This document shows, one piece after another, positions 6,741 through 20,697 of a stretch of DNA of 64,000 bases (positions are counted from its first letter, which is position 1; every line of letters starts with the position of its first letter). The notes beneath the pieces are model-generated. The model ran no database searches, had not been told where the DNA came from, and was given only the letters and a program-made list of their open reading frames with translations. The DNA is from Paludibaculum sp. (GTDB taxonomy: Bacteria; Acidobacteriota; Terriglobia; Bryobacterales; Bryobacteraceae), in the NCBI GenBank assembly GCA_029973955.1, contig JARKQJ010000152.1:1-64000 (forward strand). The letters are read 5' to 3'. The position numbers and the translations under genes were made by a program.

Positions 6741-6789
6741 TGGTGGGCCTCTTTAGTCTTTTGTGCGGCGGGGGAAGTTGCGGACAGAA

Positions 6790-7122
6790 ATGGCTACTAA
6801 GAAGACAACGACGAAGAAAGCGGCGCGAAAGACGGCGAAGAAGGTCGCCGGCAAAGAGAGCGCGCCGAAAATGGCGGCCCAGCCGGGGGCGGAGGAGCAA
6901 CCGGCGAAGAAGCCCGTAGCGCGCCAGTTCAGCGAGCGGAAGATGCGGGCGATGTTGAACATGCTGTTGAACCAGTACGCGGACCAGGTGAAGGACGGGG
7001 GCGTGAAGCTGACGGCCAGCGAAGGGTTCCGGCTGATGCAGTTGCAGGAAACGATGGGGCTGATCAAACCGACGGGAGTGAAAGTCGAGTGGGTGGAGCC
7101 CAAAGAAGAAAGCAAGGAGTAG
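6790..7122 (+). CDS. Lys/Ala-rich small protein, candidate small terminase subunit
   Basis: The 110-residue protein begins MATKKTTTKKAARKTAKKVA, a histone-H1-like basic tail of about 40 residues, followed by a helical segment (about residues 45-100) that I do not recognise. It sits 4 nt upstream of the large terminase gene, the usual place of the small terminase subunit that selects DNA for packaging. ATG 6790 is preferred over an in-frame GTG at 6763 because GGGGGAAG lies about 12 nt before it and the basic tail starts cleanly there. A DNA-binding role is inferred from charge and position only; a nucleoid-type protein is the alternative. Confidence 0.55.
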   Translation: MATKKTTTKKAARKTAKKVAGKESAPKMAAQPGAEEQPAKKPVARQFSERKMRAMLNMLLNQYADQVKDGGVKLTASEGFRLMQLQETMGLIKPTGVKVEWVEPKEESKE

Positions 7123-7126
7123 AGCG

Positions 7127-8410
7127 ATGAAAGTTACCCGGAAAATCCCGTACCAGCCACTGCCTTCGCAGGCGAAGTTTCACGAGTCGAGCGCGAGGTT
7201 CAAGGGATTTTCCGGGCCGATCGGCTCCGGCAAGAGCGCGGCGATGTGCCAGGAGGCGATCAAGCTGGCGTACCTGAATGCGGGGCGGATGGGGCTGATT
7301 GGGGCGCCGACGTTTCCGATGCTGCGGGACGCGACGCAGGCGGCGATTTTGGAGGTGCTGGCGGCGAGCGAAATTCCGTACGACCTGAACAAGGCGGAGA
7401 ACATGCTGACGCTGACGGACACGCAGTCGAAGATCCTGTTCCGGTCGTTGGACGAGTACGAGCGGCTGAGAGGCACGAACCTGGCGTGGTTTGGTGTGGA
7501 TGAATTGACGTACGCCAGCGAAGAGGCGTGGACGCGGCTGGAAGGCCGGTTGCGGGATCCGAAGGCGTCGCGGTTGTGCGGTTTCGGCGTATGGACTCCG
7601 AAGGGGTACGACTGGGTCTACGAACGCTTCATCCAGAACCCGGTGGAAGGGTATGAGTGCATTCAGGCGCGGCCGTATGAGAACCGGCACCTGCTGGATA
7701 AAGTGCCGGACTTTTACTCGCGGCTGGAGAAGAGCTACGACTCGGCGTTTTTCGCGCAGGAGGTTTTGGGCGAGTATCTGAACCCGCGGCAGGGGCTGGT
7801 GTACCACGCGTTCGAGCGGAAGGTGAACGTGGGGGAGACGGCGCTGGACGAGACGAGGGAGCTGCTATGGTCGTTGGATTTCAACGTGAATCCGATGTCG
7901 AGCGTAGTGGCGCAGCGGGATGGGGAGTGCGTGAAGGTACTGGACGAGATCGTGCTGAACCGGGCGAGCACGCGGGACGCGTGTGAGGAGTTTGACCGGC
8001 GGTATCCGCGGCGGGAGCACGGGCTGGTGATCTATGCGGACGCCAGCGCGTCGCACATGCAGACGTCGGGGACGACGGACCGGGAGATTATCGAGCGGTT
8101 CTTCGCCGAACTGGGCGAGCGGCCGGCCTACCGGATTCCGAAGAAGAATCCGGCGGTGCGGGACCGGGTGGGGTTAGTGAACGCCAAGCTGCGGTCGGCC
8201 GGGGGCGGCGTGAGCCTGGTGGTGGACGCGCGGTGCAAGGAGTTGATTGCGGACTTCGAGCGGGTGCAGTGGGTGGAGAATTCGACGGAGATTGACAAGG
8301 ATCGGGATCCGAGGCGGACGCACCTGAGCGACGCGCTGGGCTACCTGCTCTGGCAGGAGTTTCAGAGGAGGCCGGAGATCGGCGAGAGAGACCAGAGGCT
8401 TTTTTGGTAA
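7127..8410 (+). CDS. terL: Phage terminase large subunit (ATPase-nuclease)
   Basis: The 427-residue motor protein would translocate DNA into the procapsid and cut it. The ATPase half has Walker A GPIGSGKS (residues 30-37), Walker B LAWFGVDE (119-126) and a TPKG coupling motif near 157-160. The RNase H-like nuclease half keeps three candidate metal-binding aspartates: Asp251 in LDFN, Asp305 in YADAS and Asp402 in HLSDALGY. The length is normal and there are no lesions, which argues against simple decay. It overlaps nothing and lies within a tightly spaced plus-strand operon. Confidence 0.93.
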   Translation: MKVTRKIPYQPLPSQAKFHESSARFKGFSGPIGSGKSAAMCQEAIKLAYLNAGRMGLIGAPTFPMLRDATQAAILEVLAASEIPYDLNKAENMLTLTDTQSKILFRSLDEYERLRGTNLAWFGVDELTYASEEAWTRLEGRLRDPKASRLCGFGVWTPKGYDWVYERFIQNPVEGYECIQARPYENRHLLDKVPDFYSRLEKSYDSAFFAQEVLGEYLNPRQGLVYHAFERKVNVGETALDETRELLWSLDFNVNPMSSVVAQRDGECVKVLDEIVLNRASTRDACEEFDRRYPRREHGLVIYADASASHMQTSGTTDREIIERFFAELGERPAYRIPKKNPAVRDRVGLVNAKLRSAGGGVSLVVDARCKELIADFERVQWVENSTEIDKDRDPRRTHLSDALGYLLWQEFQRRPEIGERDQRLFW

Positions 8411-8428
8411 GGGAGCGGAACGACAGTG

Positions 8429-9805
8429 ATGGACATCAACCGGGAACATCCCGAATATACGGCATGGAAGACGGTCTGGCCGCGGTACCGCGACCTGTAC
8501 GTCGGAGGCGAGCAGTTCACGGCGAACGCGGAGCGGTATCTGATTCCGCGGCAGAAGGAGCCGGCGGACGTGTACCGCGAGCGAGTGAGCCGGGCGTTCT
8601 ACGAGAACTACATCGGCTCGATCATCGACTGGTATGCGGCGACGCTGTTCCGGCGGGAGCCGATTCTGACGTTCGAGGGGAAGGACGCCATCGCGCGGAA
8701 GTACTTCAACGAACTGTCGGAGGACTGCGACCGGCGCGGCTCGACGCTGAGCGACTTTTTCCGGCGGCTGGTGGTGGAGACTCTGGTGGCAGGGCGGAGC
8801 TACGTTGCGATCGACTTCCCGCGCTCAGAGAAGACGCCGGGGAGCCGGGCGGAGGAAGAGGCGCTGGGCATCTCGCGCGGCTATCTGTGCGAGTATCCGG
8901 CCGAGAGCGTGATCAACTGGCAGCGCGATGAGAAGGGCCAGTTCGAGTGGGTGGTGCTGCGCGGCGAGCGTCTGGTGGAAGACGAGAGCCGGGGCGGGCT
9001 GAAGGTGGTGCGGCAGTGGATCCGGTACGACCGGCAGGGCTTCCAGTTGTGGAGGCAGGAGGGCCGGCAGGATTCGGGCGCGGCGCCGGAGCTGGTGGGC
9101 GAAGGGCTGCACGGGTTGTCGAAGATCGGCAAGGTGCCGGTGTTCGAGTTCTCGATGGGCGAGGGGATGTGGCTGATGAACAAGGCCTCGTCGCTGCAGT
9201 TGGAGCACTTCAACAAGAGCAACGGGCTGGCGTGGGCGTTGACGATGGGGCTGTTCTCGATGCCGGTGATTTACTCCGACAGCGAGTTCAAGCAACTGGT
9301 GGGCGACAGCTACTACGTGAAGCTTGGCAAGGACGACCACTTCGGCTGGACCGAGCCGGAAGGGCACGTCTTCGAGATCGCGCTGCGGAACATCGACCGG
9401 TTGAAGGACGAGATCTACCGGGTGTGCTACGCGATGAACCAGGCGGGCGGAACACTGTCGAAGAACTCGGCGCAGACGGGCTGGAGCAAGCAGCGGGACT
9501 ACCTGATCACGCAGGAAGTGCTGCGGGGCTTCGGGGACCGGGTGAAGGACACGCTGAAGGCGCTGTTGCGGACGCTGGCGCAGGCGAGAGAAGACGAGCT
9601 CAGCATCGACGTGGCGGGGCTGGATGAGTTCGACATCGGCGAGTTCACGAGCGATCTGGAAGATGCCGAGCGGCTGCTGAAGCTGGGGATCGAGTCGAAG
9701 ACATTGAAGGCGCAGGTGCAGAAGAAGGTGGCGCTGAAGTATCTGTGCGACGCGAGCCAGGAAGTGAAAGACCGGATCGCGCAGGAGATCGACGCCGGGC
9801 TGTGA
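8429..9805 (+). CDS. Phage portal protein (DUF4055-like)
   Basis: The 458-residue protein starts MDINREHPEYTAW, like phage portal/DUF4055 proteins, and contains the region in which such proteins form the dodecameric DNA gate at one capsid vertex. The order terminase-portal-scaffold-coat supports the call. The ATG at 8429 is preferred over the overlapping GTG at 8426; GGGAGCGGAA precedes it. The C-terminal third is helical (about residues 350-458), consistent with the portal clip and crown. It is intact and of usual length. Confidence 0.85.
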   Translation: MDINREHPEYTAWKTVWPRYRDLYVGGEQFTANAERYLIPRQKEPADVYRERVSRAFYENYIGSIIDWYAATLFRREPILTFEGKDAIARKYFNELSEDCDRRGSTLSDFFRRLVVETLVAGRSYVAIDFPRSEKTPGSRAEEEALGISRGYLCEYPAESVINWQRDEKGQFEWVVLRGERLVEDESRGGLKVVRQWIRYDRQGFQLWRQEGRQDSGAAPELVGEGLHGLSKIGKVPVFEFSMGEGMWLMNKASSLQLEHFNKSNGLAWALTMGLFSMPVIYSDSEFKQLVGDSYYVKLGKDDHFGWTEPEGHVFEIALRNIDRLKDEIYRVCYAMNQAGGTLSKNSAQTGWSKQRDYLITQEVLRGFGDRVKDTLKALLRTLAQAREDELSIDVAGLDEFDIGEFTSDLEDAERLLKLGIESKTLKAQVQKKVALKYLCDASQEVKDRIAQEIDAGL

Positions 9806-9836
9806 GGCCCGGGCGGCGGGAGAGGAAAGGAGCAAT

Positions 9837-10424
9837 ATGGAGCAGACGCAGAACGAAGAACGGCGTGGGTCCGAAGGGACGGCCGGGGACGGAATGAAGG
9901 GCCTGATCCGTTCGGTGGTGGACGAGTACGTGTCGTCGGAGCGGACGAAGACCGAGCCGGCATACAAGACGGAGCTGGTGGAGGAGCGGAAGCGCCGAGA
10001 GCAGTTGGAGCGGCGAGTGAACGAGTTGGTGGAAGAGAACAAGCGCAGCCGGCAGGCGGCGGAAGAGGCGGACCGGCATGCGCAGATCCGCTCGGAGCTG
10101 CAGCGTCTGGGGGTCTCGAAGGTCGATTTGGCCTTCAAGATCGTGAAGGACGAGGTGGTGCGGACGGCCGACGGAGCGCTGACGGCGGTGACGACGGAGG
10201 GGGAGAAGGGCCTGAAGGAGTTTCTGTCGGGCTTTGTGAAAGAGAACCCCGAGTTTTTGCCGGCGAGAATTGCGGGCGGCAGCGGAGCGGTGAGTCCCGT
10301 GAAGGGGCCGGCCGGACACGGAATTGAGCTTGAGCGGATCCAACCCGGGATGAGCCGGGAGGAGTTGCAGAAGGTCCGCGAGCAGATCTCCCAGGTGATG
10401 TTGCAAACCCTGGGAGGCGAGTAG
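9837..10424 (+). CDS. Capsid scaffolding protein
   Basis: The 195-residue, highly charged protein has a strong coiled coil (about residues 45-85, with EERKRREQLERRVNEL) and no hydrophobic core domain. A helix-loop segment follows (about 90-150), then a Gly/Pro linker and a short C-terminal helix (MSREELQKVREQISQV), a common place for coat binding. Position between portal and P22-type coat genes matches internal scaffolds that template procapsid assembly and are then released. No prohead protease gene is present, as in P22-like systems. The function is inferred from position and structure, not from a recognised family. Confidence 0.75.
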   Translation: MEQTQNEERRGSEGTAGDGMKGLIRSVVDEYVSSERTKTEPAYKTELVEERKRREQLERRVNELVEENKRSRQAAEEADRHAQIRSELQRLGVSKVDLAFKIVKDEVVRTADGALTAVTTEGEKGLKEFLSGFVKENPEFLPARIAGGSGAVSPVKGPAGHGIELERIQPGMSREELQKVREQISQVMLQTLGGE

Positions 10425-10448
10425 AGGGGCCGCGAGGGCCCGCTGGTT

Positions 10449-10489
10449 GGAAAGAAGAAGAAGAAAGAGAAGAGAGAGGAACAAGAGAA
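10449..10489 (+). promoter_or_regulatory. Purine-only leader before the major capsid gene
   Basis: A 33-nt run of only A and G (10449-10481), then CAAGAGAAA, leads directly into the capsid ATG at 10490. It includes GAGAGAGGAA as Shine-Dalgarno. Such an unstructured purine leader would favour high translation of the most abundant particle protein. It is unusual in this window, where most ribosome sites are short. Confidence 0.5.
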
Positions 10490-11401
10490 ATGTCAGCAAT
10501 CACTTCATCGAATCTGGCGAACGCGATTGTGAAGCTGGTGGCGGTGGACGCCCTGCCCGCTTTGATGGGGAACCTGGTGATGGGCAACCTGGTGAACCGC
10601 GACTTCGAGCCGACGCTGGCGCAGGCCGGCGACACAGTGAACGTGCCGATTCCGCCGACGATGGTGGCGAACAACATCGCCGAAGGCGGGACGGTGCAGA
10701 CGCAGAACCCGAGCCTTTCGAACGCACAGATCGTGCTGAACACGCACGCTGAAGCGACGTTCCAGATTCCGGACGTGACGAAGGTAATCGCGGTTCCGGA
10801 TCTGCTGCGGCTGTACATGCAGCCGGCGATGATCGCTCTGGCCGAGAAGGTGGAGAGCGACCTGATGGGCCTGTACGGCCAGTTCACGGCGAACACTCCG
10901 CTGGGGACGGGCGGCTCGGCTTTGACGGAAGCGACGGTGGACGCGGCGGAGACGGCGCTGTTCGAAGCGAAGGTTCCGGCCTCGGAGCAGAAGTACCTGG
11001 TGGTGGACAGCTCGTCGTACTCGCAACTGCGGCAGATTCCGCGCTTCAGCGAGTATCAGACGGCGGGCGACGCCGGGCTGAAGACGCTGGTGGACGGCAG
11101 CATTGGACGGATCAAGGACTTCTACGTCTTCCGTTCGCAGTTCGTGAAGAAGACCGGCACTACGCCGGTGACCACGAACAACATCGCGTTTGCGAAGAAC
11201 GCGCTGGGCCTGGCGATCCGCCGGCTGCCGAAGCCCCTGCCGGGGACGGGCGGCATCGTGGAGTACGCCGAGGTGGGCAACTTCGGCATGCGCGTGCTGA
11301 TGAGCTATCAGCCGAACACGCTGGCGCAGCAGTTCACGGTGGACATTCTGTACGGCGTGGGCGTTCTGCGGAACCAGCACGGCGTGCAGGTGCGCAGCTA
11401 G
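10490..11401 (+). CDS. Major capsid protein, P22 coat (HK97-fold) family
   Basis: The 303-residue protein has the layout of P22-type coat proteins: an N-terminal region with LVNRDFEPTLAQAGDTVNVP, a spine region DLLRLYMQPAMIALAEKVE, and a long C-terminal beta-rich part ending in IRRLPKPLPGTGGIVEYAE. It would assemble with the portal and scaffold into the procapsid. No cleavage site or protease gene is seen, consistent with the P22 group. It is shorter than P22 gp5 (430 residues), so large insertion domains are probably absent. Codon use matches the neighbouring genes. Confidence 0.88.
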   Translation: MSAITSSNLANAIVKLVAVDALPALMGNLVMGNLVNRDFEPTLAQAGDTVNVPIPPTMVANNIAEGGTVQTQNPSLSNAQIVLNTHAEATFQIPDVTKVIAVPDLLRLYMQPAMIALAEKVESDLMGLYGQFTANTPLGTGGSALTEATVDAAETALFEAKVPASEQKYLVVDSSSYSQLRQIPRFSEYQTAGDAGLKTLVDGSIGRIKDFYVFRSQFVKKTGTTPVTTNNIAFAKNALGLAIRRLPKPLPGTGGIVEYAEVGNFGMRVLMSYQPNTLAQQFTVDILYGVGVLRNQHGVQVRS

Positions 11402-11426
11402 CCGAACGGCGAGCGGGTGCAGAAGG

Positions 11427-11462
11427 AGGGCGGCTCAACCAGGGCCGCCCTGCGTGTTTTTG
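11427..11462 (+). terminator. Rho-independent terminator after the capsid gene
   Basis: AGGGCGGC pairs perfectly with GCCGCCCT across a 9-nt loop, followed by GCGTGTTTTT. It lies 25 nt after the capsid stop and 26 nt before the next gene. Partial read-through here would give more capsid than tail transcript, a common phage arrangement. Confidence 0.75.
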
Positions 11463-11487
11463 AGCAGAACGAAAGGAGCAAGCGGGC

Positions 11488-11808
11488 ATGAAGCTGCATG
11501 AGTACTACGACAAGTTGAAGCAGAAGGAAGCGGAGATCTCCGGCAAGGACATCTACGTGACGAGCCTGGCGACGGGGGACGGCGGGAAGGCGGGCGTGGT
11601 GACGCAGGTGCCGAAGCGCGTGGGCTGCCAGTTGATAGTGGAAGGCAAAGCGCGGCTGGCGAGCGAGGACGAGGTACTGGAGTATCTCGAGGAGCAGGAG
11701 CAGCGGCGGGCGGAGATCGAGAGCCAGGTATGCGCGCAGCGGCTGCAGGTGCAGGTGGTGTCGGGCGGGCGGTTCACGGCGCGCGAGCCGAAGAGCAGCC
11801 GGGAATAG
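11488..11808 (+). CDS. Small cassette protein, possible head-completion or decoration protein
   Basis: The 106-residue product (MKLHEYYDKLKQKEAEISG...) is charged, with a central beta-like stretch (about residues 20-60) and a helical Glu-rich segment (about 65-80). I do not recognise its family. It follows the capsid terminator and is separated by 12 nt from the next gene, AGGAGG being the ribosome site between them. Position suggests a capsid-associated or connector protein, which is inference only. Confidence 0.55.
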   Translation: MKLHEYYDKLKQKEAEISGKDIYVTSLATGDGGKAGVVTQVPKRVGCQLIVEGKARLASEDEVLEYLEEQEQRRAEIESQVCAQRLQVQVVSGGRFTAREPKSSRE

Positions 11809-11820
11809 GAGGAGGCTGAG

Positions 11821-12558
11821 ATGGCACTGCTGGTAGACGGCGACTTGAATCGAGTGGAAGAGCTGAAGGACTGGGACACGACGGTCCTGGACGTGGCGAA
11901 CAGCGAGGGGATCGACCTGCCGGCGAAGTTGAGGCTGGCGTGGAAAGAGATCGAGGAAGAGGTGCAAGGGTTCCTGCTGTGGCAGGAGGCGGGAGAACTG
12001 GGCCAGGCGCTGGTGGACCAGGCGATGCGCAAGTGGCACGCGTTGATGACGCTGGAAGCCGTCTACCGGGATGCCTATTTCAGCCAGTTGAACGACCGGT
12101 ACGAGAAGAGGTGGAAGCACTACGCGGAGCTGGCGGCGGCGCAGGAGCGGCGGTATTTCCAACTGGGGGTGGCGACGGTGTCGAAGCCGGTGCGGCGGCC
12201 GGAGAGGGTGGTGGTGACGTTCGGCGAAGGCACAGCGCCGGCGGCGACGTACTGGGTGCGGGCGACGCACCTGGATGAAGCGGGCCGGGAGAGCGCGGCG
12301 AGCGAGGTGCAGATGGTGAGCAGTCCTCTGCCGCACTCGATGACGGTGGGGCTGGCGTATGCGCCGGCGGGGGTGACGCACTGGAACGTGTACGTGGGTC
12401 TGGAGAGCGGCAGCATGTCTTTGCAGAACGCGGCGCCGATGGTGGCGGGCGGGCTGTGGGTGCTGCCGGAGAGCGGCGTGCGGAGCGGGCGGCCGCCGGG
12501 CGACGGGCAAGCGGCGGACGGGCGGATCGAGCGACTGCCGCAGATGCGGAGGGGCTAG
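11821..12558 (+). CDS. Head-tail connector-like protein with C-terminal FN3-like module
   Basis: The 245-residue protein has a helical N-terminal half (about residues 1-110) in the position normally held by gp6/adaptor-type connectors. A beta-rich C-terminal half (about 125-225) contains APAATYWVRATHLDEAGRES and THWNVYVG, resembling fibronectin-III-like modules found on phage surfaces. A similar module appears in the tail-tip protein of this cassette. The FN3-like region may be displayed on the particle surface. The stop is 2 nt from the next ATG. Family assignment of the helical half is tentative. Confidence 0.6.
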   Translation: MALLVDGDLNRVEELKDWDTTVLDVANSEGIDLPAKLRLAWKEIEEEVQGFLLWQEAGELGQALVDQAMRKWHALMTLEAVYRDAYFSQLNDRYEKRWKHYAELAAAQERRYFQLGVATVSKPVRRPERVVVTFGEGTAPAATYWVRATHLDEAGRESAASEVQMVSSPLPHSMTVGLAYAPAGVTHWNVYVGLESGSMSLQNAAPMVAGGLWVLPESGVRSGRPPGDGQAADGRIERLPQMRRG

Positions 12559-12560
12559 CG

Positions 12561-13058
12561 ATGACGTTCACGACGCGAGAGGTGGTGGAGGCGGTCCAGG
12601 AACTGCTGGAGAGCGACGGCGGATTGCCGGCGAGCCTGGAGGCGCTGAAGCGCGAATACATTCGCGAGGAACGGCTGCCGGAGTACGCGCCGGTGGTGGT
12701 GTCAAACATTCCGGCGGAGATGCAGGAGCGGGCGTGGGGATTGAAGTATCCGGTGGTGCAGGTGTACGCGGAGCGGATCGAGAGCCGGCCGGCGGAACGG
12801 CTGCGGCGGTTTTCGGGGCGAGTGAGAGTGGTGGCTGAGATCCGGGTGTCGGGCGACCGTCTGAACGGATTGACGGAGCGGCTGCACTACTACGTGGACG
12901 CGGTGCGGGACGTGCTGGAGAAGAACGTGGGGTGCGTGCGCGAGGGGCTGTACCTGCTGCAGGAGTATGACGTGCAACTGGAGCCGGTGAAGAAGGGCGG
13001 ACAGAACTTTCTGCAGACGGCGCGGATCGGCTGCGTGGTGATGGTGAACCGAGGATAG
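12561..13058 (+). CDS. Tail terminator/completion-like protein
   Basis: The 165-residue product begins MTFTTREVVEAVQELLES. It has an alpha/beta composition with a central strand-rich segment (RRFSGRVRVVAEIRVSGD) and C-terminal QTARIGCVVMVNRG, reminiscent of phage minor tail proteins that cap the tail tube. The ATG lies 2 nt after the previous stop, with GGAGGGG as ribosome site; longer in-frame extensions would overlap the neighbour without a start signal. It precedes the tail-tube gene directly, matching lambda U/Z-type order. The family is not certain. Confidence 0.6.
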   Translation: MTFTTREVVEAVQELLESDGGLPASLEALKREYIREERLPEYAPVVVSNIPAEMQERAWGLKYPVVQVYAERIESRPAERLRRFSGRVRVVAEIRVSGDRLNGLTERLHYYVDAVRDVLEKNVGCVREGLYLLQEYDVQLEPVKKGGQNFLQTARIGCVVMVNRG

Positions 13059-13072
13059 ACGGAGAAATTGAG

Positions 13073-14239
13073 ATGGCTTGCTACATATCGTCGAGAAACA
13101 ACCGCTACTACGCGGCAGTGGAGGAGAGCTACGGCACAGCGGCGCCGGTGACGGCGGCGAACCGCTTCAACGCGGTGACGCTGGAGGCGCAGTTCGAGTA
13201 TGAACGGCCGCGGCGGAGAGACAAGACCGGGACGCGGACGGATTTGGGGTTCACGGGCGAGTTGAAGCGGAAGACGCGCTTCGCGCTGCAGACCTACCTG
13301 TACAGCAGAGAGAGCGGCGACCAGGCGCCGCGGTATGGAGCGCTGGTGCAGAGCGCGCTGGGCGGCGCGCCGCGCGTGGTGGGCGGAGGCAAGGCGGTGG
13401 CGTCAGTGAACGGATTGACGCTGACGTTCGGCTCGGCTCACGGATTGACGCTGGGCGATGCGATCACGGTGGGCGGCGAACTGCGCTTCGTGGCGGCGGC
13501 GCCGGACAGCAACAGCGTGACGCTGAGCGCGCCGTTGAGCGGAGCGGCCGGGCAGGTGACGGGCGGCACGGTGGTGTATTCGCCGGCGACGGGATTGAAG
13601 GGCGTAACGGTGTACGACTACTGGGATCCGGAGACGGCGGTGCAGAGGCTGCTGCGGGGTTCCGCGGTGAACACGATGGAGCTGAAGTTGAACGCGGACT
13701 TCCACGAGCTGACGTTCGAAGGGCAGGCGGCGGACCTGGTGGACAACAAGAGCTTCGTGGAGGGCAGCGGCGGGCTGAGCACATTCCCGGCGGAGCCGGA
13801 GCGGGAGATGGTGAACGACTGGCCGGTGCCGGGGCACCTGGGGCAGGCGTGGATTGGGACGGGTCCGGATCAGTTGCACACACTGGTGGATGCGAAGGTG
13901 CGGATCAAGAACAACATCGATTTCCGGAGCAAGGATTTCGGCGCATTGGCACCGCGGTGCATTGTGGCCGGGGACCGCGAGGTGACGGTGGAGCTGGAGC
14001 TGTACAGCCAGGACCGGGCGGTGTTTGACGAGATCTACCAGGCGGCGCGGCAGCAGAGTCCGATCGGGTTGACGCTGCAGATGGGCGACGCGGAGGGATC
14101 GATGTGCGGGGTGTACATCCCGGCGCTGATTCCTGCGGTGCCGGAGTTGCTGGATGGAGAGGAGCGGCTGCGGTGGCGGCTGCGGGGCTGCAAGGCGATC
14201 GGCACGGGGGAGGATGAAATCCATGTGGCGTTTGGGTAA
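13073..14239 (+). CDS. Major tail tube protein with inserted surface domain
   Basis: The 388-residue protein lies just upstream of the frameshifted chaperone gene, the standard place for a siphovirus tail tube. An N-terminal part (RNNRYYAAVEESYGTAA) is typical of tube proteins. A Gly/Ser/Thr-rich beta insertion (about residues 100-175) may be an Ig-like decoration. The C-terminal half (about 195-388) resumes the tube-like pattern, with VRIKNNIDFRSKDFG and VELELYSQDRAVFDEIY. It would polymerise around the tape measure. It overlaps the chaperone start by 17 nt. Confidence 0.75.
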   Translation: MACYISSRNNRYYAAVEESYGTAAPVTAANRFNAVTLEAQFEYERPRRRDKTGTRTDLGFTGELKRKTRFALQTYLYSRESGDQAPRYGALVQSALGGAPRVVGGGKAVASVNGLTLTFGSAHGLTLGDAITVGGELRFVAAAPDSNSVTLSAPLSGAAGQVTGGTVVYSPATGLKGVTVYDYWDPETAVQRLLRGSAVNTMELKLNADFHELTFEGQAADLVDNKSFVEGSGGLSTFPAEPEREMVNDWPVPGHLGQAWIGTGPDQLHTLVDAKVRIKNNIDFRSKDFGALAPRCIVAGDREVTVELELYSQDRAVFDEIYQAARQQSPIGLTLQMGDAEGSMCGVYIPALIPAVPELLDGEERLRWRLRGCKAIGTGEDEIHVAFG

Positions 14240-14624
14240 ATGGCGGCGGCGCGGGGAGGTGGAGTACGCGAGCGCGGAGTGGCACGAGTCCGATGTATTG
14301 AAAGGCGTGCGATACAAGCTGGCGCGGATTTCGCTGGCGCGGCGAGTGGAGATCACTAGCCGCGTGCGGGCGCTGGTGGCGGAGGCTGAGTATCACGTGT
14401 CGAGCGACGGGATGCTGGACGCGATCGCAGCGGCGGAGGTCGAGGCGAAAGTGCATCAGGCGTACCTACAATGCGGGCTGCTGGAGCTGCGGGGCCTGCG
14501 GGTGGACGGCGAGACGTGCGGCGTGGCGGAGCTGGTGGAGCGGGGTCCGGAGGGGCTGTGCCGCGAGATAGCGGGGCGGATACGGGCGCTGTGCGTGGTG
14601 AGTCAGGAAGAGCGAAAAAACTAG
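14223..14624 (+). CDS. Tail assembly chaperone, short form (lambda gpG-like)
   Basis: The 133-residue protein starts at ATG 14223, eight nt after GGGGAGGA, and ends at a TAG placed directly after a slippery heptamer. It has a helical core (about residues 35-110). In lambda-like phages this product, with its frameshift-extended form, holds the tape measure while the tail tube assembles, and is not in the final particle. Position between tail tube and tape measure and the frameshift signal support the role; sequence similarity alone would not. Confidence 0.8.
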   Translation: MWRLGKWRRRGEVEYASAEWHESDVLKGVRYKLARISLARRVEITSRVRALVAEAEYHVSSDGMLDAIAAAEVEAKVHQAYLQCGLLELRGLRVDGETCGVAELVERGPEGLCREIAGRIRALCVVSQEERKN

Positions 14625-14674
14625 TTCTCGCACTCCAGTTCCATTTGGGAGGCGGAGCCGCCTGGCGGTGCGAG
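14615..14674 (+). promoter_or_regulatory. Programmed -1 ribosomal frameshift site
   Basis: Heptamer A AAA AAC at 14615-14621 is in the exact zero-frame register needed for tandem -1 slippage and is followed immediately by the TAG stop. After a 5-nt spacer (14622-14626), CTCGCAC (14627-14633) pairs perfectly with GTGCGAG (14668-14674), enclosing a second 5-bp hairpin AGGCG/CGCCT (14650-14663, tetraloop). The -1 frame stays open to 14947. This is the canonical arrangement of lambda G/GT-type sites. Confidence 0.92.
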
Positions 14675-14947
14675 GAATGCAGGAAGATGCGGCTGGAAGA
14701 GCGGCGCGGGTGCGGTTGGTTGAAACCGCGGAAAGCGGGCGGACGGATTGTGTGGGCCCGCGGCGGAGCGGCGACGACAGAGTGCCCGCGCAGCGCGATT
14801 ACGGCGCAGAGCGCGGCGTGGCTGGAGTTGTTCGCCGCCTGGAAATGGACCGGCCTGGCCGGGGAGAGCGAGTTGACGGCGCGGGACGTGGACGCGCTGG
14901 CGATTCTGAACCGCGAATGGGAGAAGGCGAAGCATGACCAACGATGA
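14621..14947 (+). CDS. Frameshift extension of the tail chaperone (gpT-like domain)
   Basis: Read after the -1 shift, this segment adds 108 residues to the 133-residue short form, giving a 241-residue GT-type protein. It has no plausible start of its own near the junction. The extension carries four cysteines, in WRCEECRK, RRGCGW and TTECPRS, which could bind a metal, and ends with a helix (VDALAILNREWEKAKH). In lambda the T domain recruits tail tube subunits to the tape measure. Its last bases overlap the start of the next gene by 14 nt. Confidence 0.8.
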   Translation, partial: LVLALQFHLGGGAAWRCEECRKMRLEERRGCGWLKPRKAGGRIVWARGGAATTECPRSAITAQSAAWLELFAAWKWTGLAGESELTARDVDALAILNREWEKAKHDQR

Positions 14948-15542
14948 ACGGGACGTGGCGAGCGTATTGAGAGAGGCAGTAAAAGCGGCGGCGGGGTATC
15001 CGGCGTCGCGAGTGGAGACGGAAGGCGTGGCGCTGGATGGGCCGGCGCCGGAGTCCGCGCGGGCTGTGAAGCAGAGCGCCGGCACGGAGACGGCGAAGGC
15101 TGCGCAGGGGCGGACGGCGGAGAGCGCGCTGGGGGTGGGGTCGACGAGCACGGTGCTGGATTCGATCGCACCGCTGGTGACGCAGGTGACGGGCGGGAGC
15201 ACTGTGTCGAAGGTGGTGTCGTGGATCAACCCGCTGGCGGGCGCGCTGCTGGGCTTGTTCGGCGGAGGCCGGAGCGAGCCGGAGGTGGAACTGCCGAAGG
15301 CGATGCGGCCGGCGAGCATCCACTACGAAGCAGGCATTCGCGGCGCGGGCGGAGAGATGGTGCAGGTGGACCGCGACGAGCAGGGCCAGCTACGGAGCGC
15401 GGAGGCGCCGCCGAGCGTGGTGGTGCACGTGGCGGCGATGGATAGCGTGTCGTTCCTGGACAGGACGCCGGAGATCGCGGAAGCGGTGAAGCGGGCGCTG
15501 CTGGAGAGCGACGGGTTGGGCCGGTTAATGAACCCCGATTAG
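14934..15542 (+). CDS. Very short tape-measure-like protein
   Basis: The 202-residue protein follows the chaperones, where the tape measure belongs. It has a low-complexity Ala/Glu N-terminus, a hydrophobic segment (VVSWINPLAGALLGLF, about residues 97-115) as found in tape measures, and a C-terminus (VVVHVAAMDSVSFLDRTPEI) that resembles the end of tape-measure proteins in GTA-like and lambdoid tails. Typical siphovirus tape measures are 600-1500 residues; this one would specify a very short tail. It may be an internally deleted tape measure. No other tape-measure candidate exists in the cassette. Confidence 0.65.
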   Translation: MTNDERDVASVLREAVKAAAGYPASRVETEGVALDGPAPESARAVKQSAGTETAKAAQGRTAESALGVGSTSTVLDSIAPLVTQVTGGSTVSKVVSWINPLAGALLGLFGGGRSEPEVELPKAMRPASIHYEAGIRGAGGEMVQVDRDEQGQLRSAEAPPSVVVHVAAMDSVSFLDRTPEIAEAVKRALLESDGLGRLMNPD

Positions 15543-15552
15543 GAGAGAAGCG

Positions 15553-15909
15553 ATGTTGGAATTCCCCAAGCTGAAGACGGGCGCGGCGGCGCAGTATGGC
15601 GTGCGGCGAGGCGTGGCGGGCGAAGTGCGCGTGCTGCCGTTTCTGGATGGCACGGAGCAGCGGTACGCCTCGAAGCGCTGGAAGAGGAAGTGGCGCATCC
15701 GCCTGGACCAGTTGGACGAAGGGGAGGCGGGAGCGGTGGAAGAGTTCGTCAGGCGGCACTTCACGACGCTGGAGCCGTTCGCATTCACGGATCCGCAGAC
15801 GGGGACGGTTTACGCGCAGTGCGTAGTGGAAGGCGATGGGCAGGAGTGGGCAGCCTGGGCGGCGGGCGACAGCCGCATGAGCATCACGGTTTCGGAAACG
15901 GAGGAATGA
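15553..15909 (+). CDS. Distal tail protein A (paralogue of the next gene)
   Basis: The 118-residue protein begins MLEFPKLKTGAAAQYG and is nearly all beta-strand. Its first 90 residues align by eye with the first 90 residues of the next gene product (MNYPILKSGAVAQYP), including the shared W-x-I-x-L/Y-D and EAGA-x-E patterns. Both look like the DUF2460/distal-tail domain that builds the tail tip ring. AGGAGAGAAG precedes the ATG. The role is inferred from position and from the similarity to distal-tail domains. Confidence 0.65.
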   Translation: MLEFPKLKTGAAAQYGVRRGVAGEVRVLPFLDGTEQRYASKRWKRKWRIRLDQLDEGEAGAVEEFVRRHFTTLEPFAFTDPQTGTVYAQCVVEGDGQEWAAWAAGDSRMSITVSETEE

Positions 15910-15910
15910 G

Positions 15911-16675
15911 ATGAACTACCCGATATTGAAGAGCGGCGCGGTGGCGCAGTATCCGCTGTCGAGAAGGACACGGCATCACATCCTTCAGACCGAGACGCCG
16001 GGCGGCCAGGTGAAACGGATCCACGGCGGGCGGACGGCGGAGGTCGGCTGGACGATTCAGTACGAGGACCTGACCGACGCCGAGGCGGGCGCGCTGGAGC
16101 TGCTGTTTGAGGCCAGCGGCGGCGGGCTGCAGACGTTCCGGTTTGTGGACCCGCTGGCGAATCTGCTGCGGTCGAGCGGAGATTTGAACGCCGAAGTGTG
16201 GAGCCGCGCAGGTGTGACGGCAGCCGCGGTGGAGGGAGAGCCGGGAACGTTCGTGGTGACGAATGGGGCCCAGGCTGAGGCGATGGTGTGGCAGAGCGTG
16301 GGGGCGGTGCCCGGGATGACGGTGTGCTTTTCGTGCGAGGTGGGCGGGTTGCCTGGCGCGGAAGTGAAGTTGCGATGTGCGGGTCAAGAGAGCCTGGTGA
16401 GGCTGACTCCGCAGTGGCAGCGCGTGTGGGTGGCCGGCGTGGCGGCTGGCGAGGATGTTGTGTGCGGTGTGGCGGTGCCGGCGGCAGCGAGTGTGGTGGT
16501 GCGGAGATTGCAGGCTGAGAATCAGATGGCGCCGACCGAGTACAAGAGCGGCGATCCGGATGGCGGCGTGCACCAGGTTCGGTTTGAAGCGGGCGGTTTG
16601 GAGACGGAGATCACCGGCAAGGATCGCAACGCGATGGTGGTGCGCTTGCGCGGCAGACGAGGGAGCTTGGCATGA
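15911..16675 (+). CDS. Distal tail protein B with C-terminal lectin-like module
   Basis: The 254-residue protein combines an N-terminal distal-tail-like domain (about residues 1-90), paralogous to the preceding gene, with a beta-rich domain (about 95-215). The second domain has ELEVWSR-like spacing (LNAEVWSRAGVT) and repeated short strands, resembling galactose-binding/carbohydrate-binding modules. The C-terminus returns to the tail pattern. It starts 1 nt after the previous stop and overlaps the tip gene by 4 nt (ATGA). The added module could contact a cell-surface glycan. Confidence 0.6.
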   Translation: MNYPILKSGAVAQYPLSRRTRHHILQTETPGGQVKRIHGGRTAEVGWTIQYEDLTDAEAGALELLFEASGGGLQTFRFVDPLANLLRSSGDLNAEVWSRAGVTAAAVEGEPGTFVVTNGAQAEAMVWQSVGAVPGMTVCFSCEVGGLPGAEVKLRCAGQESLVRLTPQWQRVWVAGVAAGEDVVCGVAVPAAASVVVRRLQAENQMAPTEYKSGDPDGGVHQVRFEAGGLETEITGKDRNAMVVRLRGRRGSLA

Positions 16676-19600
16676 GCAGCATCCATGAAAAGAAGCGGCT
16701 GGAGGTGCTGGAGACGCCGCTGCTGTTGTTTGAGTGCGCGCTGGCGGACGGAGGCGTGGAACGGTGGTCGACGCACCGGGTGACGGCCGAGGGGCAGGAG
16801 TACGAACCGAGGATTCTGCGGCACAGCGGCTTCGAGATGAAGCTGGCGGGAGAAGAGGCCGTGGATAGCGGGGCGCGGTTCACGGTGACGCTGAGCAACG
16901 TAGACCGGAGAGTTTCGCAACTGGACAGCCAGAACCGCTGGAGCGGCGCGCGGCTGCGGGTGCGGTTCGGATTCTTCCACCTGCAAACGGGAGTGCCGGC
17001 GAGCGAGCTGATTGCCGTGTATGCGGGTGTAGCGAATCCGGTGGAGGAGCTGACAGAGACGGAGGCGCGGCTGAGCTTCACGAACCGGTTGAGCCTGCAG
17101 AGAGTGAGCGTGCCGACGCTGCGGATTCAAGCGCGGTGCCCGTGGCGATTTCCGGTAACGGCGGAAGAGCGCATGGCGGCGTTGGATGCGACCTCAGCGT
17201 GTGGAAAGTGCGGCTATTCGGCGGATGCCGAAGGCGGTGTGGGGAATCTGCTGGAGGGCGCAGCCTACGCCGGCTGCGGGCGGACCCGGGAGGAGTGCCA
17301 GGCCCGGGGGATGTTCTCCGTAGACGCGCGGGGGCAGGAGACGGCGCGGTTTGGCGGGTTCACCTATTTGCCGCCGAGCGTGGAGGTGCGTTCGCATGCG
17401 ACCGGCGAGCGGATGGTGGCGGAGGCGATCGACGGGCGGGCGCGTTCGAATGACGCGGTGCCGCTGGTGTACGGGACGGCTTGGATCAATGCGCCGGTGG
17501 TGTTCGCCAGGAACGACGGGAATCTGACGCACTGCGAGGTGCTGCTGTGCTCGGGGCCGATCGAGGGTGTGCAGAAGGTGATCGCCAATGGTGTGGAGCT
17601 GCCACGCGGGGAGCATGGCAAGGACATGACGGCGACGGGTTGGTACAACGTGCTGAGCCTGGGCGGACGGAACGGCGGATTCAACCTCACATTCACGGAT
17701 GCGGCGGGCAGGCCGGCCGGCGACCCGCATGGGAGCATGGCGTGTCTGGCGGTAGTGCTGCCGAATGCGATTGTGACGCAGGGCAAGCTGCCGAAGGTGG
17801 AGGTGCTGCTGGACGGGCTGAAGCTGCGGCGGTATTCGAATGAAGGCGAGGAGTTGGGGGCGGCGTTTACGCGGAACCCGAGTTGGGTGCTGCTGGATTT
17901 GCTGGAACGCGGCGGGTGGAGCACGGAGGAGATTGACATCGCGAGCTTCGCGGCGGCGGCGTCGTTTTGTGAGGAGTTTGTCGAGATCCGGATGCCAGGC
18001 GGCGAGACGGCGCAGGGGCCGCGGTTTGAAGTGAATGTGGCGTTGACGCAGCGGCGGAGCTTGAGCGAGATCGTGCGCGGCGTGCGGATGGCGGCGGGGC
18101 TGATGGCGACGATCGATGAGCAAGGTCGGGTAACGATCCGGCCGGAGTCCACGCTGGCAGTGCAGGCGGCGGAGAGACCGGCGGGGTCGAACAGCACGGA
18201 GGCTTTGCAGGGGGGCTGGCCGGCGTATGAGTTCGGCGATGGAATGAACGGGAGGAGCGCGATTCTGCGGAGCGAGAGCGGGCGTTCCACGTTCCGGATC
18301 TGGCGGCGGGCGACGAGCGCGACGCCGAACAGGATCAGCGTTGAGTTTCAGGACGCCTTCAACTACTACCAGCAGGACAGCCTGTCGCTGGTGGACTTCG
18401 AGGACGCGGCGGCGCAGGGATGCGAGGTGGCGGTGACGTCGGGGGCAGTGGGGTTGCCGCACGTGGACCAGGCGGCACGGATCGTCAGGCTGCAGTTGGA
18501 GCGCGGAATCGCGGGGAACCGGTTTGTGGAGTTTGAGACGAGCGTACAGGCTCTGGGCCTGCGGCCTGGAGACCTGATCGCGATCTCGCACTCCCGGGAA
18601 GGTTTGGACCGCGCGCTGTTCCGCGTGCTGAAGCTGACACCGGCGTTGAACTTTGAGCGGGTAAAGATTGTGGCGCAGCTCCACAAAGACGAGTGGTACC
18701 TGCGGGCGAGCGGAGATTGGCAGGACAGGTATCGGGAAGCCTTGGAGCGCTCCGGGATTCCGCGGCCACTGGCAGGCCTGATGAAGGACGCCGCGGGCGA
18801 GGAGTTGTTCGCGGTGGAAGAGATCGACACCGGCGGATTGGAGCAGGTGGAACTGGCGGTGAAGTTCGGCAAGCCGGCGGGGATTCCATTACAGGCGGGG
18901 ACGCCGCCGGTGGTGAATCTGCAGGCCGGAATCACGGCGGGCGGCGGGACGCTGGCGGGCGGCGAGGTGCTCTACTACGCAGTGAGCGGAGTGGATGCGC
19001 AGGGCGTGGAGACGGCGCTCTCGTTTGTGGTGCAGGCCGCGCTGCCGGCGGGCGCGCAGTATGCTGTGGCGCTGGAGGGGATTCGATGCGCGACAGGTCA
19101 CGGCAGGATGAGGATCTATCGCGGGAGATCGACGTGGCGGATGAGGCGGATTGCGGAGACGGTAGCGGCGGCGCGATTTGTGGATGCCGGTTTGGAGGCG
19201 AGTCTGGCTGCGCCACCGGATGCGAACTACGACCATGCTCTGTTCCAGTGGCGATTTGAAAAGTTGCCGGAGACGGAGGTGGAGATGGCTGGCGCGAGTT
19301 CGGTGGGCAAGCGCGGGCTGGGTTTGCTGCCGAATGAGTTTGCCGGCTGTCTGGTGCGGATCACGCGAGGGAAGGGTGCGGGGCAGGAGCGGCTGATCGC
19401 CAGCCATTCGGCTGAGGTGCTCGAACTGACCGAGGCATGGCGGGAGGCGCCGGATGCGACGAGCTGGTTCACGATCGCGGAGGGGAGCTGGAAGCCGGCA
19501 GGCATCACATCGAGCGATGGGATTCATATGCTGGTGCCGAACCGGCCGGGCGAAGTGGTGCAGTTGCTGGGCACGGCGGTGAGCGCGGCCGGGGCGGAGA

Positions 19601-20556
19601 GTGTCAACCGGGAGGCGATCGTACACCGGCACCGGATCGAAGGCGATCTGCAGGCGGGCGATGCGGATGTGCCGCCGGAACCGGTATTCGGTGTAACGAC
19701 CATGGGGCAAGGCGCCGTGGAGATCGCCGGCATCGGGTTTGGGACGCTGGACAACACGGTGACGATCCGCAGCGGGACGCTGACGCTGCACTATTGGAAT
19801 GAGCTGCTGAGTCCGAGCCAGGCGGTGCTGGCAGGCGCGACTGACGACACGGCGCAGGCACTGGTGATGAGCGGATTGACGGCGGAGGCCGGCGATCTGC
19901 TGCAGGTGGAAGGCGAACTGGTGCGCGTGTTGGAGGTGAATGGAGGCCAGTATCTGGTGGACCGGGGTTGCCACGGCACGCCGGCGATGGCGCATGGTGC
20001 GGGCGCGATCGTCTACCGAATGAGCCGGCGGACGGCGGTGCTGCCGTTTTCGAAGGGATTCTTTGGGAGCAGCGCCAGCGGGAGCTACTCGCAGTCCGTG
20101 GATCTTCCGAACGCCAGGGTGGCGGCGGCTGAGCTTTTCATGACCAACGACCGGGGCCACGGCCCGACAGGCGCGCTGGCGTTCACAATGACGGCGCAGG
20201 GCGGATTGCGGACCATGAGCGGCGGGCAGTACAGCCTGCAATGGGAAGGCGATCTTGCGGTGACGGGGTCGATCGCTCCGGAGCTGGTAGTGGAGGCGAC
20301 GCGAGTGGTGCTGGATGTCCGGGCCCGGCTTGGAGTTGCCCCGATCATGGAACCGGTGGAGGTGCGGGTGCTGGTGAATGAAAACGTGTACGCCACGCTG
20401 CAGGTTCCTCCGGGGTCCAGGAACTCCGCGGCGTTGAGCGGATTCGGGAAGCCGGCGCTGAAAGAGGGGGATCGAGTTCGCGCCCAGATTGCGAGCGTCG
20501 GGACGAGCGGCGGGAGCTATCCGGGGCGGGACCTGACGGTGACGATGCGGCTGTAG
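16672..20556 (+). CDS. Tail-tip protein: gpL-like Cys-rich domain fused to gpJ-like host-specificity protein
   Basis: The 1294-residue protein begins with a beta domain (residues 1-150, DUF2163/gpL N-terminal-like). A cysteine-rich segment follows, with Cys156 (RCPWRF), Cys177/Cys180 (CGKCGY), Cys202, Cys209 and then RFGGF at 226-230. That pattern matches lambda gpL, whose C-terminal domain binds an iron-sulfur cluster. From about residue 262 it continues as a gpJ/tip-attachment protein (PLVYGTAWINAPVV, LLCSGPIEGVQKV, RNPSWVLLDLLERGGW). A C-terminal 600 residues hold FN3-like and other beta modules, the likely receptor-binding part. In lambda, L and J are separate genes with K and I between them; here no K-type peptidase is present. 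Confidence 0.85.
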   Translation: MSSIHEKKRLEVLETPLLLFECALADGGVERWSTHRVTAEGQEYEPRILRHSGFEMKLAGEEAVDSGARFTVTLSNVDRRVSQLDSQNRWSGARLRVRFGFFHLQTGVPASELIAVYAGVANPVEELTETEARLSFTNRLSLQRVSVPTLRIQARCPWRFPVTAEERMAALDATSACGKCGYSADAEGGVGNLLEGAAYAGCGRTREECQARGMFSVDARGQETARFGGFTYLPPSVEVRSHATGERMVAEAIDGRARSNDAVPLVYGTAWINAPVVFARNDGNLTHCEVLLCSGPIEGVQKVIANGVELPRGEHGKDMTATGWYNVLSLGGRNGGFNLTFTDAAGRPAGDPHGSMACLAVVLPNAIVTQGKLPKVEVLLDGLKLRRYSNEGEELGAAFTRNPSWVLLDLLERGGWSTEEIDIASFAAAASFCEEFVEIRMPGGETAQGPRFEVNVALTQRRSLSEIVRGVRMAAGLMATIDEQGRVTIRPESTLAVQAAERPAGSNSTEALQGGWPAYEFGDGMNGRSAILRSESGRSTFRIWRRATSATPNRISVEFQDAFNYYQQDSLSLVDFEDAAAQGCEVAVTSGAVGLPHVDQAARIVRLQLERGIAGNRFVEFETSVQALGLRPGDLIAISHSREGLDRALFRVLKLTPALNFERVKIVAQLHKDEWYLRASGDWQDRYREALERSGIPRPLAGLMKDAAGEELFAVEEIDTGGLEQVELAVKFGKPAGIPLQAGTPPVVNLQAGITAGGGTLAGGEVLYYAVSGVDAQGVETALSFVVQAALPAGAQYAVALEGIRCATGHGRMRIYRGRSTWRMRRIAETVAAARFVDAGLEASLAAPPDANYDHALFQWRFEKLPETEVEMAGASSVGKRGLGLLPNEFAGCLVRITRGKGAGQERLIASHSAEVLELTEAWREAPDATSWFTIAEGSWKPAGITSSDGIHMLVPNRPGEVVQLLGTAVSAAGAESVNREAIVHRHRIEGDLQAGDADVPPEPVFGVTTMGQGAVEIAGIGFGTLDNTVTIRSGTLTLHYWNELLSPSQAVLAGATDDTAQALVMSGLTAEAGDLLQVEGELVRVLEVNGGQYLVDRGCHGTPAMAHGAGAIVYRMSRRTAVLPFSKGFFGSSASGSYSQSVDLPNARVAAAELFMTNDRGHGPTGALAFTMTAQGGLRTMSGGQYSLQWEGDLAVTGSIAPELVVEATRVVLDVRARLGVAPIMEPVEVRVLVNENVYATLQVPPGSRNSAALSGFGKPALKEGDRVRAQIASVGTSGGSYPGRDLTVTMRL

Positions 20557-20620: not shown

Positions 20621-20697
20621 GGGCGCGTAGCTCAGTTGGTTAGAGCGCCTGCTTCACACGCAGGAGGTCACAGGTTCGAGTCCTGTCGCGCCCACCA
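20621..20697 (+). tRNA. tRNA-Val (anticodon CAC)
   Basis: A complete cloverleaf can be drawn. The acceptor GGGCGCG pairs with CGCGCCC, the D arm is GCTC/GAGC, the anticodon stem CCTGC/GCAGG surrounds TTCACAC (anticodon CAC at 20655-20657), and the T arm is ACAGG TTCGAGT CCTGT. An encoded ACCA ends it. It decodes GUG, a frequent codon in this GC-rich genome. Confidence 0.95.

Follow-up and report, generated by a model that had tools for sequence, protein, structure and literature searches.

The analysed window (the whole 64,000-nucleotide stretch of Paludibaculum sp. DNA) harbors a cassette of ~14 kb (6763–20556) encoding a terminase, a portal, a scaffold, a P22-type capsid, joining genes, and tail genes running from the tube through a J-like protein (Table 1). 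A family scan of 16 reading frames at E < 0.01 detected no integrase, replication, or lysis family and no protease/peptidase family, a maturation protease (phrog_22948) being matched only at 0.22. The N-terminus of the first cassette protein is lysine/alanine-rich and resembles histone H1, and a tRNA-Val gene (20621–20697) just downstream of the cassette end possibly marks an old integration site.

Table 1. Features of the cassette in the window, with the basis of each assignment
Feature	Position	Strand	Basis
119-aa protein, perhaps small terminase	6763–7122	+	position only; no significant family match
Large terminase	7127–8410	+	phrog_2, E 6.6e-42
Portal	8426–9805	+	phrog_145, E 1.1e-53
Scaffolding protein	9837–10424	+	phrog_206, E 1e-4
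Major capsid protein, P22-coat family	10490–11401	+	PF11651, E 2.5e-17; phrog_283, E 5.5e-44
Three genes, probably head-tail joining	11488–11808, 11821–12558, 12552–13058	+	conserved order in related loci; no family match
Tail tube protein, 388 aa, T5 pb6 / P74-26 class fold	13073–14239	+	structure model match
Tail assembly chaperone, G-like, 0 frame	14238–14624	+	position and frameshift site; no family match
−1 slippery heptamer A_AAA_AAC, directly before chaperone stop	14615–14621	+	kept in related loci
T-like chaperone extension, −1 frame, ends 14 nt inside TMP gene	14622–14947	+	frame; chapT matches
Predicted stem-loop after slippery site	14625–14676	+	outermost tested pair covaries across loci
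Miniature tape measure protein (TMP), 202 aa	14934–15542	+	homology, relatives' PHROG family match, gene order
Minor tail protein, lambda M-like	15553–15909	+	PF05939, E 2.5e-4 (below cut-off); phrog_14, E 4.6e-5
Distal-tail-like protein	15911–16675	+	phrog_1302, E 0.0023
Tail hub / central fibre J-like protein, 1294 aa	16672–20556	+	PF13550, E 4e-10; phrog_31, E 1.1e-18

The tape measure protein (TMP) gene is an ATG-initiated frame of 202 codons without an internal stop. Its own genome holds one full copy together with one 46-base partial match elsewhere, and a profile of 39 relatives returned a single match across that whole genome at E 0.001. The interval from the tube end (14239) to the minor tail gene (15553) spans ~1.3 kb, half of which is taken by the chaperone frames, leaving no room for a long tape measure; this layout bears out the original prediction that no other tape-measure candidate accompanies the ORF. 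On another contig of the same genome, a 796-codon frame (L301, G000:C88) shows a 45-position match to the RcGTA tape model (9e-6).

At the TMP C-terminus, MDSVSFLDR occupies residues 169–177, and D170, S173, and D176 are invariant in the alignment of 39 relatives. The best hydrophobic window (residues 91–109), preceded by ~90 residues, reaches a 19-residue hydropathy mean of only 1.39, and a mean of at least 1.6 is attained in just 18 of 64 TMP sequences. The proposal that both a hydrophobic segment and an MDSxSFLDR-type C-terminus are kept holds for the motif, and the segment is present in weak form. The AlphaFold2 model of the TMP is poor (pLDDT 63) and places helices only at residues 8–19, 100–109, 172–176, and 178–198; a long α-helical tape is not predicted, which counts against our best reading, though little at this model quality. 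Since no long helix is predicted, our claim is one of descent from tape measures, from which we infer the same role.

The frameshift signal upstream of the TMP gene is widely kept. The heptamer is found in 60 of the 63 loci having both tube and TMP (absent in L096, L132, and L136), among them loci with a capsid 76% identical; across all 80 named loci (1.29 Mb) it occurs 99 times, these 60 included. In 59 of the 60 loci, the zero-frame stop is no further than one codon from the heptamer, and in 50 the −1 frame ends between −30 and +60 bases from the called TMP start. The stem starts three to five bases 3′ of the heptamer. With the 3′ arm located by a motif, the outermost pair is standard in 48 of 61 sequences (29 G–C, 13 C–G, 5 G–U, 1 A–U), against a shuffle mean of 28.5 and with 0 of 20,000 shuffles as high, a comparison uncorrected for relatedness. 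Fold z-scores ranged from −0.6 to −2.9 over six sequences. The start of the G-like frame is uncertain, the ORF list giving 14154. In the lambda tail genes, the G/GT chaperone arrangement is generated by −1 frameshifting; heptamer and stem correspond to it and mark the next gene as the tape measure.

Kinship and length of the tape measure

Searched alone, the window TMP finds no family match in Pfam, PHROGs, or NCBIfam and has no credible homologue in the PDB, and both results count against our best reading. Among its relatives, 34 of 39 match phrog_3779, a tape-measure family of 1225 positions, at E 0.1 or better (best 1.6e-6), and all ten relatives scanned at E 1 match within positions 1160–1220 (E 0.21 to 1.6e-6). 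The likeness is thus a common C-terminal stretch of ~50 residues, whereas ~1000 tape positions of the model have no counterpart in the cassette TMP. The phage database yielded no TMP homologue for the window protein (E 10) or for L139 (E 1); with L007 as query, 287 records were returned, 286 of them Vibrio phages, and the best E listed was 0.2, so that the tape-measure annotation of 15 of 20 rows among the matches listed agrees with the naming without being significant. Related loci long enough to show it keep the order tube, chaperone, TMP, minor tail, distal tail, and J. The family matches of the relatives and the place after the chaperone support the earlier naming of the ORF, which, judged by its sequence, is a tape measure protein. 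A chance ORF is ruled out by conservation.

The short length recurs across the cassettes. Loci were found via the capsid, and the 80 named ones are the best 80 of 195; a TMP is readable in 63 of these, at 153–319 aa with a median of 206.5 including the window, and the remaining 17 end at contig ends no more than 933 bases past the last cassette match. A set of 158 viral-contig loci, some being overlapping pieces of one contig and half having been found through the TMP itself, gave 118 matched TMP ORFs (median 218.5, range 98–464 aa). Throughout the class, a TMP profile match is present in 87 of 399 genomes; 4 of the 87 best matches contain a stop, which counts against our best reading. The original prediction had named a longer gene in other copies as the sign of a deletion mutant in the window, and a comparison of homologous cassettes found the readable copies short instead. 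A local deletion or an assembly artefact is ruled out likewise, the short form being read from many separate assemblies.

Linker expansion accounts for most of the extra length in L285 (464 aa) and L271 (325 aa), an over-called start being taken to add to the former. L066 (282 aa) aligns with a long N-terminal overhang and likewise looks like an over-called start, and L290 has a TMP of 317 aa. The length of L266 and L098 (319 aa) comes from N-terminal repeats: at L098:5247–5731, a 57-aa (171-bp) tandem repeat in 2.8 copies extends the N-terminal tape in one lineage. Tapes are known to lengthen by such repeats, and this one provides a natural test of the TMP as a ruler.

Long versions of the same protein exist in the same hosts. 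The class-wide search returned six long homologous frames (873–1175 codons stop to stop, or 862–1145 aa from the first start codon; E 3.4e-15 to 3.0e-4) in five genomes, each with a short cassette besides (G266, G076, G347, G044, and G006, the last with two long frames), as well as two further extra matches in short frames (G330:C144, 221; G290:C30, 160). The window TMP has only about one fifth of the length of such full-size homologues. The short-TMP profile aligns to residues 732–858 of 862 in L311, 990–1048 of 1053 in L315, and 885–926 of 934 in L314. This placement at the C-terminal end, the part in which the long TMPs (L309, L310, L311, L314, L315, and L316) resemble the short one, indicates that the short form corresponds to the C-terminal module and lacks almost the entire tape. 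Likeness extends to gene order in L309 (G006), where a piece of the terminase is followed by portal, scaffold, capsid, tube, chaperone, 1145-aa TMP, and distal tail, and in L311 (G266), where an 862-aa TMP precedes minor tail, distal tail, and J; at most one further cassette relative was seen in each of the remaining four loci. Besides length, the two forms differ in their neighborhood: a PF00589 integrase lies on the contig within 51 kb of all six long TMPs (within 16 kb for five), whereas none was found within 75 kb of eight short cassettes, a search covering the PF00589 family only and including some short contigs. Long and short versions of one protein in the same genomes constitute an internal control.

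Apparent inheritance with the host and exchange of the capsid gene

Of 101 genomes sampled from Bryobacteraceae, the family of the window, 84 carry the capsid gene, as do 3 of 298 others of the class; its absence from 17 family genomes counts against our best reading. A sample of the phylum yielded it in 2 of 396 genomes, both Bryobacteraceae. A single capsid match (E 1e-40) was obtained in 84 of the 87 capsid-bearing genomes, with more in G006, G126, and G266. Capsid and RpoB are conserved to about the same degree, and their distances correlate (r = 0.70, 24 genomes, 0 of 5000 permutations as high); restricting the comparison to one genome per genus (19 genomes) lowers the correlation to r = 0.40 with 7 of 5000 permutations as high, which counts against our best reading. 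Upstream genes are common with another locus in 29 of 47 loci and form clade-specific sets, which we take to comprise a penicillin-binding protein with proline dehydrogenase, a ketol-acid reductoisomerase, and an asparagine synthetase; the site is therefore kept within clades and not across the family, which counts against our best reading. The cassette at L067 is acidobacterial, yet its record is titled Arcobacter sp., probably because the assembly is mixed or wrongly labelled.

Between the window and L063, dN/dS was 0.05–0.32 in 12 genes, with the TMP at 0.31; the 'dit' row of L063, a wrong match at a contig end, was left out. Two more distant pairs gave higher values, all below 1, and the rise of the TMP to 0.78 and 0.44 counts against our best reading. 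In identity to L063, the TMP (74%) is the least conserved together with the gene at 11488, as compared with 98% for the capsid. Vertical inheritance with the host lineage, absence of integrase and replication genes from the frames scanned, and purifying selection, three properties of gene transfer agents, are all seen in the cassette.

Trees of the tube (40 cassettes, 3 prophages), portal (45, 3), and terminase (42, 2) place the cassettes on one side of a branch supported by SH-aLRT values of 100, 100, and 98, respectively, which fits one shortening in the cassette lineage. The trees were built quickly, from alternate loci and some selected ones besides, and in the portal tree long branches that meet drew a warning from the program. 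When the very distant phage Keanu is added, the portal and terminase trees show no single clean split, whereas without it the split is clean. Use of the capsid tree to root the shortening failed, because the four prophage capsids nest within the cassette branches and three lie close to their own host's cassette, which counts against our best reading; portal, terminase, and tube were used instead. Prophage capsids are 68–84% identical to their best cassette match, with portals at 30–36% and tubes at 24–29%. The prophage-like loci L308, L309, L312, and L313 combine capsids of 68–84% identity with other structural genes at 24–52%. The capsid gene has apparently been exchanged between the putatively domesticated cassette and prophages.

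Tail length and the nature of the element

The tube model is confident (pLDDT 85) and matches the tail tubes of P74-26, DT57C, and T5 (E 4e-14 to 1e-10, TM ~0.5–0.6), while the phage database gave no sequence match for the tube protein. This predicted fold indicates that a real non-contractile tail is encoded. A tube of the T5 / P74-26 two-domain class is here combined with a miniature TMP; P74-26 itself is described as having the longest known tail.

The original prediction multiplied 202 residues by 0.15 nm to arrive at a tail of 30 nm. That rule assumes one long helix, and the derivation does not hold with a model, albeit a poor one, that lacks such a helix and with only ~90 residues before the hydrophobic segment, although a tail near 30 nm would still fall within the plausible range. 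RcGTA, whose short tape measure the prediction had rightly pointed out, has a TMP of 113 + 83 + 20 residues, of which 113 form a helix; its tube comprises five hexamers, and its tail measures 49 nm overall (PMC7296036). RcGTA (~216 residues, five rings, 49 nm) is a better yardstick than the 0.15-nm rule. From the ~90 residues, about 3–7 tube rings would be expected, for a tail of roughly 30–50 nm overall.

The cassette TMP resembles the RcGTA TMP, g11 (model NF058675), in length (220 positions in the model, median ~207 in the cassettes), place in the tail operon, and C-terminal helix. It differs in that the 113-residue N-terminal helix is not predicted, and the RcGTA tube of hexamers stands against a two-domain T5 / P74-26 class protein in the cassette. 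NF058675 gives weak matches, all under the cut-off, to 4 of 9 same-genus cassettes (3.3e-4 to 0.085); 0 of 21 genomes exceed the cut-off and 4 of 14 control genomes also match under it, which counts against our best reading. Kinship of the two TMPs is only suggestive. The RcGTA gene set includes a prohead protease and a peptidase, whereas the cassette has a scaffold-type head with a P22-coat capsid and no protease/peptidase match at E < 0.01 in the 16 frames. The RcGTA peptidase is g14 (PMC7296036). The lytic phage R4C, which has an RcGTA-like baseplate, carries a 517-residue predicted helix and a long tail (PMC10276861).

By its sequence, the TMP combines an N-terminal stretch of ~90 residues with the C-terminal module found in ordinary tapes, which comprises the hydrophobic segment and the MDSxSFLDR helix domain. 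In the mechanism we propose, three copies may thread the tube, loaded by G/GT chaperones arising from −1 frameshifting, and their C-terminal helices may dock in the hub beneath the J-like protein, in the manner of RcGTA TMP C-termini (PMC13420450). Only a few tube rings (~3 to 7) would be added before capping ends tail growth. Host DNA would pass from cell to cell in the particle, and the functions of lysis and regulation would be encoded elsewhere.

The same element has been described as Bryobacterales provirus group (i) (PMC11924767), one member of which, IMGVR_UViG_639633060_000001, is our L278; that work calls the elements proviruses, and the terms 'gene transfer agent', 'tape measure', and 'domesticat' are absent from its main text. 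Two soil isolates, Candidatus Solibacter usitatus Ellin6076 and Paludibaculum fermentans P105, are named there in connection with the group. For Ellin6076, one source gives no intact prophage (PMC3174227) and another counts one predicted prophage (PMC5900883). A search of the open-licence PubMed Central literature returned no report linking gene transfer agents with Bryobacteraceae or Terriglobia, and for Acidobacteri no title among the matches listed announces such an element.

We consider it probable that the TMP belongs to a long-inherited domesticated siphophage cassette of Bryobacteraceae, working like a gene transfer agent. A small, still mobile prophage family that has short tails, occurs in these hosts only, and is misread as domesticated is an unlikely reading: IMG/VR does hold the element as viral contigs, PMC11924767 names it a provirus group, and capsid genes have apparently passed between cassettes and prophages, but the 16 frames lack integrase, replication, and lysis families at E < 0.01, no PF00589 integrase lies within 75 kb in 8 genomes, nearly all capsid-bearing genomes give a single capsid match, the capsid tracks the host, and upstream genes are common within clades. 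Less probable still is that the TMP no longer measures and acts as a plug or needle-like tail-tip protein, tail length being set otherwise. The position behind G/GT-like chaperones and the lineage that lengthens its N-terminal part by 57-aa tandem repeats argue against such a role, which would accord with the lack of a predicted long helix, the location of the invariant residues in the C-terminal module, and the resemblance of the RcGTA TMP to the P22 needle (PMC7296036).

A decaying prophage remnant, its TMP truncated by chance and no tail made, is very improbable given the dN/dS values against L063 and the retention of the heptamer even in loci with divergent capsids; the low conservation of the TMP and of the gene at 11488 and the stops inside four TMP matches are what speak for it. 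Returning to the domesticated cassette, the view that extreme shortening fits domestication is consistent with the short TMP occurring in a host-tracking cassette with no PF00589 integrase nearby and the long ones near integrases; as to causation, this is a correlation only. A broader proposal is tentative, though a serious contender: that the cassette represents an independently arisen family of gene transfer agents in Acidobacteriota, retained by most Bryobacteraceae, in which the TMP shrank once to an RcGTA-like ~200 residues by convergence and from which prophages recapture the capsid gene. If true, convergent tail shortening would be a mark of domestication, and the short TMP would turn from an oddity of RcGTA into a possible general consequence of that process. 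On present sequence evidence, these findings flag a probable gene-transfer system in soil bacteria, cultured strains included.
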